Part shown: in pieces, positions 29,186-36,506 of the stretch
Numbering within the stretch: the stretch's first letter is position 1
Layout of the letters: every line of letters starts with the position of its first letter
DNA from: Actinopolymorpha cephalotaxi
Lineage (GTDB): Bacteria > Actinomycetota > Actinomycetes > Propionibacteriales > Actinopolymorphaceae
NCBI RefSeq assembly: GCF_013408535.1
Contig: NZ_JACBZA010000001.1
Coordinates: forward strand, 1,054,001-1,118,000
Direction: 5' to 3'
Length of the DNA stretch: 64,000 nucleotides
Translations under genes and position numbers: made by a program
Notes under the pieces: generated by a model
Told to the model about the DNA's origin: nothing
Seen by the model: the letters and a program-made list of their open reading frames with translations, nothing else
Databases searched by the model: none

Positions 29186-30391
29186 TCAGGAACTCGGGCC
29201 GAGCGGGGAGGCCAGCACGGACGCGATCAGCGCGGCGCGCTCCACCAGCGACTCCGCCACGATCTCCTCGTGCACCGCGTGGGCTCCACGTCCGCGTGGG
29301 CCGAACCCGTCCAGTGCGGGCACTCCGGCCGCGCCGGCGAAGTTGGTGTCGGCGGCGCCGAGCGCGTGCGACCCCCGGACCTGCTGCCCCACCCGCTCAC
29401 CGGCCCCCACCACGGCAGCGAGCAGGTCGTCGTTGCCGGTGCCGGCCCAGGCCGGGCGGCTGGTGAGGATCCTGGCCTGGATCCCGGCGTTCTCGCGGAT
29501 GGGTTCGAGCCGGGTCAGCTGGTCCAGGACCCGGCGTTCGACCTCGGCGTCGCCGAACCGGAACCCGAGCTCGGCGCCGGCCTTCCCCGCGGTGACGTTC
29601 GTGCGGGTGCCGCCGTACACGGTCCCGACGTTGTAGAGCACGTGTTCCTCGGCCGCCGCGATGCCCCGCAGCTCGACCAGCTGGTCGACGAGCTCGTCGA
29701 TGGCGGACACGCCGCGGGTACGGTCCAGCGCCGCGTGCGCCTCCACCCCGGTGGCCTCCAGGCGTACCCGCGTACTCCCGTGCCGGCCGGTCTTCAGCCC
29801 GCCTTTCGGGTGCGGCGGCTCCAGCCCGAGGGCCGCGGCCGCACCGGCCAGCTCGCGTTCGACCAGCGCCCGGCCGGTGGGCGTGCCGATCTCCTCGTCC
29901 GCGGTGACCACCAGGCGTACCTGCTGGGCGAGGGGGACGTCGCAGTCGCGCAGAACCGTGATCGCCGTCTCGAACGCGACCAGGCCGCCCTTCATGTCGA
30001 ACACGCCCGGCCCGCGGATCAGCGTCCCGTCGTCGACGTACGGCATCCGCGCCGCGAGCTGGCCGACCGGCCACACCGTGTCGTGGTGGCCGAGCACCAC
30101 CACGTGCGGCCGCTCGGCCGCGCTGCCGGTGGTGCTGCCGGTGCCGTCGGTGCCGTCTGTGATTGCCTCGCCGGCGGGCCAGGCGGCGACCAGGTGGTCG
30201 CCGGTGTCGCTCGCGACCGGCGTCACGGTGGCGCCGAGCTCGGTGTAGTGGTCGGCGAGCACCTCACCGAGCCGGTTCAGCGCGTCCGCGTCTCCGGTGG
30301 GCGTCTCGTGGTGGACGTACGCGGCGAGCCGTTCCCGCATCCGCGGCTCGAGCTCGCGGGCCCGGCGCACGAGGCGTTCGAGGGAATCCAT
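29186..30391 (-). CDS. M20 family amidohydrolase, candidate N-succinyl-L-amino acid desuccinylase
   Basis: 401-residue di-zinc M20 peptidase. Ligands and catalytic residues are in VVVLGHHDTVWPVG (His), RGPGVFDMKGGLVAF (Asp), VVTADEEIGTPTG (Glu-Glu) and the C-terminal GRGAHAVHEEIV (His). A dimerisation domain has LEATGVEAHAAL. It resembles glutamate carboxypeptidase-type and N-acyl amino acid hydrolases. It diverges from a GNAT / racemase gene set, matching the three-enzyme D-to-L inversion route known from Geobacillus, in which an M20 enzyme removes the succinyl group from the L product. The ATG lies 7 nt after a TATCCT -10, so the mRNA may be leaderless. Confidence 0.82.
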   Translation of the reverse strand: MDSLERLVRRARELEPRMRERLAAYVHHETPTGDADALNRLGEVLADHYTELGATVTPVASDTGDHLVAAWPAGEAITDGTDGTGSTTGSAAERPHVVVLGHHDTVWPVGQLAARMPYVDDGTLIRGPGVFDMKGGLVAFETAITVLRDCDVPLAQQVRLVVTADEEIGTPTGRALVERELAGAAAALGLEPPHPKGGLKTGRHGSTRVRLEATGVEAHAALDRTRGVSAIDELVDQLVELRGIAAAEEHVLYNVGTVYGGTRTNVTAGKAGAELGFRFGDAEVERRVLDQLTRLEPIRENAGIQARILTSRPAWAGTGNDDLLAAVVGAGERVGQQVRGSHALGAADTNFAGAAGVPALDGFGPRGRGAHAVHEEIVAESLVERAALIASVLASPLGPSS

Positions 30392-30398
30392 GCCCCGC

Positions 30399-30562
30399 AG
30401 GATATGACTCGTATCCTCGTCCCCTCGTCACCGACCCGCGCGCGAGGTGAGCGCTCCGGTCCGGCCGGGGCCTTGTTCGAACGGGGATTCCCGGAGCACG
30501 CATTGACCTCGGCCTCGCATCCCTGCTAGACATCTCGCGGTTATCTGTCGCGTATCTTCGTC
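30399..30562. promoter_or_regulatory. Divergent control region of D-amino acid cluster
   Basis: On the minus strand TATCCT (30404-30399) is 7 nt before the M20 ATG. On the plus strand TATCTT (30553-30558) is a -10 candidate for the GNAT gene. The 12-mer CGTATCCTCGTC (30410-30421) recurs as CGTATCTTCGTC (30551-30562), one copy near each promoter, and AGGATA-n7-TATCCT forms a small palindrome. A shared regulator is possible. Confidence 0.4.
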
Positions 30563-34846: not shown

Positions 34847-34928
34847 CCCCGCAACCCCGCCTTGACGCCCGAGCCGACCGGGTCGCTCCGAGCCCGGACC
34901 GACCCGACTGCCATCCGGAGGTCAGCAC

Positions 34929-36506
34929 ATGTACGACGTGGTACTCGCCGGCGGAACCGTCCTGGACGGAACGGGTGCGCCCGGCACCGTGGCCGACGTG
35001 GCAGTCGAGGACGGCCGGATCGCCTTGGTGGGCAGCGTTCCCAGAACCCAGGCGCGGCGCCGGATCGACGTGACCGGCGCGGTGGTCTGCCCGGGTTTCG
35101 TGGACCTGCACTCCCACGCGGACTTCACCGTGTTCGGCACACCGGGCGCACTCACCCAGATCGCGCAGGGCGTCACCACCCTGGTCACCGGCAACTGCGG
35201 CTTCTCGCCGTTCCCGGTGGTGCCCGAGCACGAGGACGAGTTGCGCGTGCACGCGGGCTTCCTGGACGCGGACCTGCCGTGGGAGTGGTCGGGCGCGGGG
35301 GAGTACGCCGCGGCCGTCGAACGCCTTCCTCTCGGTGTCAACCTCGCCTTGCAGGTAGGCCATGGTGCGGTCCGCATCGGTGCGATGGGCGTGGCCGACC
35401 GGGCGCCCACGCCGGCCGAGCTGGACCGGATGCGGTCGCTGGTCGCGGAGGCGGTGGCCGACGGCGTCGCGGGACTGTCCAGCGGGCTGATCTACGCGCC
35501 CGCGTCGTACGCCAGGGCGGAGGAGCTGGCCGCGGTGGCCGAGCCGGTCGCCGCCGCCGGGCGGCTCTACTCCACCCACATCCGCGACGAGGGCGACGGA
35601 CTGGACGAGGCGGTGGAGGAGGCGCTGGAGGTCGGCCGGCGTACCGGCGTCCGCGTGCAGGTCTCCCACCTCAAGGCCGTCGGCCCGGCCAACTGGGGCC
35701 GGGTGGGCAGGGTTCTGCAGACCCTGGCCCGGGCGCGGCGCGACGGTGTGGACGCGCACGGCGACCAGTACCCCTACACCGCGTCCAGCACCACGCTCAC
35801 CGCCCGGCTGCCGGGCTGGGCGATGGACGGCGGGGTGGCGGCGCTGCGGGAGCGGCTGGAGCGCGCGGAGGACCGGGACAAGTTGGTCGCCGACCTCACC
35901 GCCCGGACCGGAACGACCTTCCTGCCCGAGCGGATCGTGCTGTCCGACACCCCGGACGGTCCGTACCGCGCACACCTCGGCAAGGACCTCGCGGCCATCG
36001 CCGGTGCGGTCGGCCTGTCACCCGCGGAGACGGCCGTCGACCTTTTGCGCCGCCAGCGCGGGGTGGCCTCGATCATCAGCCACGGCATGGCCGAGGACGA
36101 CGTACGCACGATCCTCGCCGACCCGGCGGTCGCGGTGGCCAGCGACGGCTGGATCCTCGACTGCCCCGGCGCCGGTACGCCGCACCCGCGCAGCTTCGGG
36201 ACGTTCGCCAGGGTGCTCGGCCACTACGTGCGGGCGGGGGTGCTGGACCTGCCCACAGCAGTGGCGAAGATGACCTCGCTGCCGGCCGCCCGGCTGGGCT
36301 GGCGCGACCGCGGCGTGGTGCGTCCCGGCGCGGTCGCCGACCTCGCGGTGTTCGACCCGGCCGAGGTGGCCGACCCCTCGTCTTACGACGCACCGTGGCA
36401 GCTCGCGCGCGGAGTGTCGTACACCTTCCTGGCCGGTACGCCGGTGTGGGAGAACGGCGCCGCCACCGGTGCCGCTCCGGGCCGGGTTGTCGGCGGGCGG
36501 CGGTAG
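34929..36506 (+). CDS. N-acyl-D-amino-acid deacylase (D-aminoacylase)
   Basis: 525-residue amidohydrolase-superfamily enzyme that frees D-amino acids from N-acyl forms. It has [14 protein letters not shown] (metal His-x-His), [14 protein letters not shown] (metal Cys region typical of D-aminoacylases), [10 protein letters not shown] and [10 protein letters not shown] (His ligands), [13 protein letters not shown] and [29 protein letters not shown] (Asp). The ending [14 protein letters not shown] segment closes the small beta-sandwich. ATG 34929 has GGAGG upstream. Lying after a transporter and an amino-acid racemase, it extends the cluster's chemistry to acylated D-amino acids. Confidence 0.88.

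Follow-up and report, generated by a model that had tools for sequence, protein, structure and literature searches.

A putative salvage cluster for D-amino acids

Six adjacent genes of Actinopolymorpha cephalotaxi raise the question of whether they encode a pathway that recovers D-amino acids and, if so, what controls it. The genes lie in the stretch of 64,000 nucleotides analysed here (the window; contig NZ_JACBZA010000001.1, positions 1,054,001 to 1,118,000), which is part of a genome consisting of a single contig of 6.86 Mb. An earlier note, made from the DNA sequence of the window, had described a divergent M20 gene and five genes in one direction with tight spacing at the front, and all six were found (window coordinates):

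29186..30391, minus strand, M20 metallohydrolase (PF01546 76 bits, E 4.5e-21; motifs HxDTV, DEE and GxGAH)
30674..31519, plus strand, GNAT acyltransferase (from motifs and neighbours; aligned to GNATs beside or near plasmid racemases)
31516..32151, plus strand, SIS-domain protein lacking a helix-turn-helix and proposed as a ligand-responsive regulator (PF01380 57 bits, E 2.6e-15)
32156..33277, plus strand, enolase-superfamily N-acylamino acid racemase of a divergent clade (MR_MLE_C 170 bits; TIGR01928 308.8 bits)
33326..34846, plus strand, IT-superfamily (NhaC/DcuC-like) transporter (Na_H_antiporter PF03553 39 bits, E 5.7e-10; DcuC PF03606 25 bits, E 9.3e-6)
34929..36506, plus strand, D-aminoacylase-type amidohydrolase (Amidohydro_3 109 bits; best match 1M7J)

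The GNAT and SIS genes overlap by 4 bp, a gap of 4 bp separates the SIS and racemase genes, and the next gaps measure 48 bp and then 82 bp.

We consider it rather probable that these genes encode a cytoplasmic D-amino-acid salvage pathway controlled by a local switch of its own. The transporter would import amino acids or N-acyl amino acids, and the D-aminoacylase would release D-amino acids by deacylating their N-acyl forms. The GNAT protein would transfer an acyl group from acyl-CoA onto the D-amino acid, the racemase would interconvert the N-acyl-D and N-acyl-L forms, and the M20 enzyme would hydrolyse the N-acyl-L form only; because no other form would be cleaved, the reaction would be drawn toward the L-amino acid. 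The SIS protein is related to the ligand-sensing portion of MurR/RpiR regulators. It would bind a ligand of the pathway and, alone or with a partner, control sites of the form ATACG-N3-CGTAT that flank the divergent promoters; repression is the likeliest mode. The evidence is that of sequence: gene content, conservation, catalytic residues, a separate MenC, and the link between the palindrome and the SIS gene. Substrates, acyl group and direction are inferred from it, as are repression and the binding of DNA by the SIS protein. If correct, this reading would extend a three-enzyme D-to-L route to a regulated salvage system in several actinobacterial families, and would link the cluster to hydrolases that may release D-residues.

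The three-enzyme route is reportedly that of Geobacillus, in which, as Sakai et al. are said to have described in 2006, an N-succinyltransferase, an N-succinylamino acid racemase (NSAR) and an M20 enzyme invert D- to L-amino acids. GNAT, racemase and M20 genes stand side by side in both cases, and the same chemistry is proposed here from the genes alone; this likeness is one of gene content, the cluster GNAT having been compared with plasmid GNATs of other genera. The present cluster differs in having a SIS gene, a deacylase, a transporter and a candidate operator in addition, and in a racemase that belongs to a clade of its own. Two proposals of the earlier note hold up at the level of genes: GNAT, racemase and M20 as an inversion-type module are conserved together in actinobacterial loci, and the predicted transporter and N-acyl-D-amino-acid hydrolase that it added to the module are both present in the locus. 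Its overall interpretation stands in part, namely for the module with added genes but not for a fixed six-gene unit or a racemase of the characterised type.

Conservation of the cluster

In a first search of 57 relatives (thresholds E<=1e-60 for the racemase and E<=1e-3 for GNAT), the same 32 carried both genes. A second search located loci in named genomes by alignment of the SIS protein alone, and partners were then sought by tblastn within 10 kb on each side. An NSAR-type racemase was present in 47 of the 52 SIS loci, GNAT in 46/52, M20 in 46/52, the D-aminoacylase in 35/52 and the IT transporter in 22/52. Because contig ends cut some loci (L130, for example), the smaller counts are lower bounds. 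The loci belong to Actinopolymorpha, Kribbella, Jiangella, Haloactinopolyspora, Actinomadura, Saccharopolyspora, Pseudonocardia, Phytomonospora, Murinocardiopsis, Actinoplanes, Propionibacterium, Cryobacterium, Plantibacter and Nakamurella, and to one metagenome-assembled genome. Twelve of the 52 contain M20, GNAT, SIS and racemase alone in that order, one more has the same four reordered, and four have SIS alone. In nine Actinomadura loci and one Pseudonocardia locus the SIS, D-aminoacylase and transporter genes lie on one strand and the racemase and GNAT genes on the other, so that the partners are retained there though their order is altered. Genomes already represented (L108-L110) were left out of trees, motif counts and operator counts; some genomes are still counted twice, under two locus names.

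A class-wide sample of 394 genomes, the window's own included, contained the racemase clade in 18 (E<=1e-100) and SIS in 22 (E<=1e-25). All 18 were among the 22, and the two genes were neighbours in 17 of the 18 (hypergeometric 1.3e-27 under independence, uncorrected for relatedness). The joint presence of racemase and GNAT in the same 32 of 57 relatives is more than chance, and the arrangement is met again in several actinobacterial families. The earlier note would have given up its reading had the six genes not been neighbours in related genomes. The survey that it suggested was run, and since the cluster genes adjoin in related and also in distant actinobacteria, that ground for abandoning it falls away; the idea that all six form a fixed unit does not stand, given the transporter and deacylase counts. 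No description of the cluster was found in the open-licence literature, for which titles and abstract openings were covered, subscription literature being outside the scope.

The SIS gene occurs in a second type of operon

A survey of the order yielded 53 SIS genes in 342 genomes. Of these, 52 were examined, and for 30 of the 52 the flanks covered were no longer than 1.5 kb. Forty stand beside a racemase gene, ten beside a gene for an LD-carboxypeptidase (S66) and two beside neither. In nine of the ten S66 loci (L203, L204, L236 and L242-L247) the SIS gene forms an operon with an oligopeptide importer and S66, accompanied by a divergent M20-type peptidase gene, and five of these nine also have an M19 dipeptidase (Pfam on examples). 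No paper on such an operon was among the matches listed from the open-licence literature. The two operon types coexist in one genome (G477), which has a separate SIS copy in each. In the SIS tree a branch (94/86; present in 98% of 200 bootstrap trees) sets the S66-linked copies apart, together with six unassigned ones. Apart from the SIS gene and the palindrome, a distant M20-family gene is all that the two operon types have in common among the queries used. Cell-wall peptide recycling through S66 is comparable in that the SIS homolog has genes for S66, an oligopeptide importer and M19/M20 peptidases as its neighbours; it differs in being a separate operon without racemase, and its cell-wall peptide origin is suggested by the S66 family name.

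The SIS domain occupies residues 58-185 of the window protein and was present in all 29 members scanned (window protein and 28 homologs), none of which matched a helix-turn-helix family at E up to 10. MurR/RpiR regulators resemble these proteins in a SIS domain with an R-Y motif but have an N-terminal helix-turn-helix; annotated RpiR genes of full length form part of the racemase operons on a Priestia and a Sulfitobacter plasmid. A close tie to those plasmid regulators was dropped, as identity was too low (19% and 26%). A part for the SIS protein in racemase chemistry is unlikely, because ten SIS genes stand with S66 and away from the racemase. The protein is probably a regulator, or part of one, rather than an enzyme. 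The earlier note had seen in it a non-DNA-binding protein of unknown role. A bystander role is improbable, because the palindrome tracks the SIS gene through both operon types.

A palindromic candidate operator

The palindrome ATACG-N3-CGTAT is common to the divergent M20/GNAT regions: at least nine of its ten defined bases occur in 46 of 50 such regions, and 22 have it exactly. The motif was read off these 50 regions first, so that this count describes rather than tests it, and a few of the regions share a genome (for example L075 with L136, L081 with L143). In 100 approximate dinucleotide shuffles, a mean of 0.44 and a maximum of 2 regions reached at least 9/10. The regions without such a site are two SIS-less loci, in which none reaches even 8/10, and L079 and L135, each with 8/10. 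The following elements were recognised in the window:

30402..30414, unstranded, candidate operator 1: ATATGACTCGTAT, 9/10, beside the M20 start; best score in the window (23.9); inverted repeat AGGATA-N7-TATCCT
30503..30532, plus strand, likely sigma-70-type promoter of the GNAT unit, TTGACC-N18-TAGACA (TTGAC located computationally; -10 box read by eye)
30543..30555, unstranded, candidate operator 2: ATCTGTCGCGTAT, 8/10, just downstream of the -10 box; second-best in the window (16.7)
30618..30630, unstranded, weaker operator-like site: ATACGCATCGTGT, 9/10; third-best in the window (12.9); also in L069, and 8/10 in L071

The three top-scoring sites of the 64 kb thus all lie between M20 and GNAT. 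A TTGAC box with a palindrome site 20-70 bp downstream was present in 28 of the 50 regions, an order that would suit a repressor.

Racemase loci held out from the derivation had a site of at least 9/10 in 19 of 23, eight of the 23 apparently being from genomes already used. Among the other 15, 11 had such a site; in L197, L199 and L239 the best matrix score lay in the region or at its edge, and L200 had none. The matrix was built from 37 distinct racemase-cluster sites only. Even so, in 9/9 importer/S66/SIS operons its best site within 15-17 kb fell in the stretch that separates the divergent peptidase gene from the importer (scores 7.9-19.6). No site of at least 9/10 was found in 20 loci having GNAT and racemase without SIS (type-2 loci), in the two SIS-less loci with a clade racemase or in four GNAT-only loci. 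Nakamurella has a site scoring 25.5 at the SIS promoter and two more near an M20-type peptidase gene, and the four Actinomadura loci scanned have sites on both units.

The exact palindrome was also sought throughout 11 genomes. It is absent from G000 and G072. G005, G173, G191 and G477 have it at the cluster and nowhere else, and G003, G113, G200, G209 and G218 have it at the cluster and at one or two further positions. Other exact copies in three related genomes were not counted as part of the cluster regulon: ATACGCAACGTAT or its complement lies between ArsR-like and monooxygenase-like genes (by eye) in L251, L255 and L261. AT-rich plasmid references score high with the matrix, as their composition predicts. 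High scores just upstream of annotated RpiR genes on the Priestia (L176:4570) and Sulfitobacter (L178:3814) plasmids are accordingly a lead only.

Which protein would read the palindrome?

Several points weigh against a salvage pathway switched by its SIS protein. The protein has no recognisable DNA-binding domain. G006 and G007, of the same family, have the racemase without SIS at E<=1e-25; since two relatives keep M20, GNAT and racemase without it, SIS is dispensable. One Actinopolymorpha genome (L072, the same as L109) has neither GNAT nor transporter in its cluster. No convincing site was found in eight SIS loci, namely four of Plantibacter, L201, L202 (none at all), L237 and L200. The weakest S66-type score (7.9) is not above the best type-2 background (9.4), an overlap in height and not in place, and GNAT-only loci scored 15.9 and 11.2, away from GNAT. 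The racemase departs from the characterised type at fixed positions (see below), and if deacylase and acyltransferase handled the same acyl group, the two could run a futile cycle.

A DNA-binding regulator encoded elsewhere could also read the palindrome, the SIS protein then being a metabolic enzyme or its ligand-binding partner. This explanation, which we rate as possible though rather doubtful, would account for the missing helix-turn-helix and for the eight SIS loci without a convincing site. It sits less well with the four of 11 genomes whose exact palindrome lies only at the cluster, where no autoregulated regulator gene is in view (the genome-wide search was for exact and not degenerate sites), or with the scarcity of genes, other than SIS, that both operon types share with the site. 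We prefer control through the SIS protein. A bolder version of it is that SIS proteins lacking any known DNA-binding domain are a new kind of transcription regulator, which would recognise ATACG-N3-CGTAT by way of a conserved basic N-terminus and govern two separate salvage operons; this we put forward tentatively, as something that may well turn out otherwise. One SIS-controlled operon would then invert D-amino acids, and the other would import and trim cell-wall-type peptides. What is new is a putative local regulon in which, of the regulator-like members, the SIS protein alone is constant. The palindrome offers a directly testable site, and the SIS protein is pointed to as the probable switch.

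The cluster might also be a plain Geobacillus-type module in which GNAT, racemase and M20 carry out the inversion, deacylase, transporter and SIS being loose passengers and SIS having no regulatory role. The three-gene core does stand alone in the close relatives L073 and L074 and occurs without SIS in type-2 loci, and deacylase and transporter are frequently missing. Passenger status for SIS is nevertheless unlikely in view of its presence in 18/18 racemase-clade genomes of the class sample and the absence of the palindrome from both loci that have a clade racemase and no SIS.

The racemase and its partner enzymes

The racemase exceeds the cut-off of TIGR01928, a model named o-succinylbenzoate synthase (OSBS), with 308.8 against 200.65 bits. 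After removal of five identical sequences the racemase tree was reduced from 88 to 83 rows, 56 of which form one clade (support 100/100) on a long branch; the tree program warned that two long branches meet at this clade. The 27 racemases outside it include plasmid copies of Deinococcus, Priestia, Lysinibacillus, Limosilactobacillus, Sulfitobacter, Streptomyces and Arthrobacter. K164, K265, D189, E216 and D241 are kept in 56/56 inside and 27/27 outside the clade; we take the first two to be the catalytic Lys pair and the other three to be metal ligands. R268 is invariant on both sides. Thirteen positions are fixed in 56/56 and unlike the usual outside residue: S23, H24, I48, A49, S50, F99, G103, L137, L250, S267, H295, F297 and K324. 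Four of these replace the usual F23, G24, L295 and T297 by S, H, H and F throughout the clade, in a comparison that used no strict family definition, and at the same four the clade also differs from the aligned solved N-acylamino acid racemase. Several of the thirteen presumably line the active-site pocket. Because these clade-fixed positions depart from the usual residues, the clade may act on another acyl group, not necessarily N-succinyl, or on another side chain than the known enzymes do. The OSBS/NSAR-type assignment of the earlier note consequently stands as to family profile and catalytic residues, and not as to the characterised type.

The GNAT protein scores under Pfam cut-offs (best E 0.0086) and was therefore called from its motifs and neighbours. 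It aligns with GNATs next to plasmid racemases of Priestia, Lysinibacillus, Sulfitobacter, Streptomyces and Arthrobacter, and with one in the vicinity of a Deinococcus plasmid racemase, which is consistent with a D-amino acid N-acyltransferase. For the M20 protein, carboxypeptidase G2 is the nearest relative among solved structures. HxDTV, DEE and GxGAH occur in 52/52 cluster M20s, and the Asp-ligand motif, as one written pattern, matched 31/52 (M20s under 330 residues or outside the loci of the clade were left out of the count). It would act last, as an N-acyl-L-amino acid hydrolase. The IT transporter would be an importer of amino acids or their N-acyl forms.

The D-aminoacylase gene product matches the D-aminoacylase 1M7J (subtype V amidohydrolases) best and shares common motifs with it; the predicted enzyme differs in sitting in an inversion cluster. 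Seven motifs are each kept in 42-45 of 45 deacylases, the metal and catalytic ones in 43-45 (GNCG 45/45, SH.K 45/45, H220 motif 43/45, SDG 44/45, L155 being without SDG); three non-cluster matches (L088, L093 and L103) were left out.

Could the clade act on other substrates, such as N-acyl cell-wall peptides or amino-sugar acids, with an OngB-like carbohydrate deacetylase as its partner? The fixed changes S23, H24, I48, S50, H295 and F297 would allow for it, and so would the D-aminoacylase-like fold, which also serves the carbohydrate deacetylase OngB, an enzyme deacetylating GlcNAc1A (PMC12017989). The same paper names Thr at the OngB Ser292 position as typical of D-aminoacylases (PMC12017989). 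YPYxAxST is kept in 42/45 deacylases, and its Thr, placed by counting from the Tyr, falls at that position, which weakens the deacetylase reading; the match to 1M7J (E 1.4e-91) moreover beats that to PpOngB (E 5.9e-68). With GNAT and M20 fitting amino acids as well, we regard other substrates as improbable. A D-to-L inversion with entry of N-acyl-D-amino acids appears to be the best reading; in its favour, GNAT and racemase also stand with hydrolases that are candidates for releasing D-residues. The pathway of the earlier note is plausible.

That the racemase is the OSBS of menaquinone synthesis, as the TIGR01928 name might suggest, is scarcely credible and was rejected, given a dedicated MenC at 4875633 of the genome (458 bits, cut-off 288) and no menaquinone enzyme among the eight cluster and flanking proteins scanned.

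A further comparison is with the DgcN-DgcA D-glutamate pathway (PMC10845958). The likeness is enolase-type racemisation of an N-acetylated amino acid, going by the NCBIfam name of DgcA. The cluster racemase scores 107.9 bits with the DgcA model (NF042940), far under its cut-off of 400. The GNAT here occupies the place of DgcN, a family that we take to differ from GNAT.

Neighbouring genes and variant loci

In the window, ligA starts 10 bp past the end of the D-aminoacylase gene, and genes for a TetR protein and an alpha/beta hydrolase (27550-29177) separate metE from M20. Membership of these two genes in the cluster was rejected because four relatives (L069-L072) have metE directly beside M20, with neither gene matched. 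A palindrome TACGA...TCGTA at 27561-27581, near the TetR gene start, is perhaps TetR's own operator.

Hydrolase genes recur near the cluster and may include candidates for releasing D-residues. The 20 type-2 loci contain a fusion of prolyl-oligopeptidase and beta-lactamase folds (S9/S12) in 12 and a PucR-type regulator in 14 (Pfam on one member each), and oligopeptide ABC genes are found there too. A class-A serine hydrolase family occurs in 11 of the 52 SIS loci (Pfam on two), mostly with no apparent signal peptide by eye. Its members, L112:13746-14525 and ten similar genes, have a class-A beta-lactamase fold, with SxxK, SDN and KTG in L112, and mostly adjoin the transporter gene.

Kribbella-type loci (L075-L080, L082 and L083, all eight of family f3) lie between a gamma-glutamyltranspeptidase family and the dapF/hflX families (Pfam on L075). 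Class IV aminotransferase genes follow the racemase in two of the loci scanned, L081 and L149. A second GNAT paralog stands alone in L084 (G000:C1:550549-551265), L085, L086 and L087. At the same place two sister genera have the M20-GNAT-racemase core with the same neighbour families, and the lone GNAT is perhaps the remnant of an ancestral copy.

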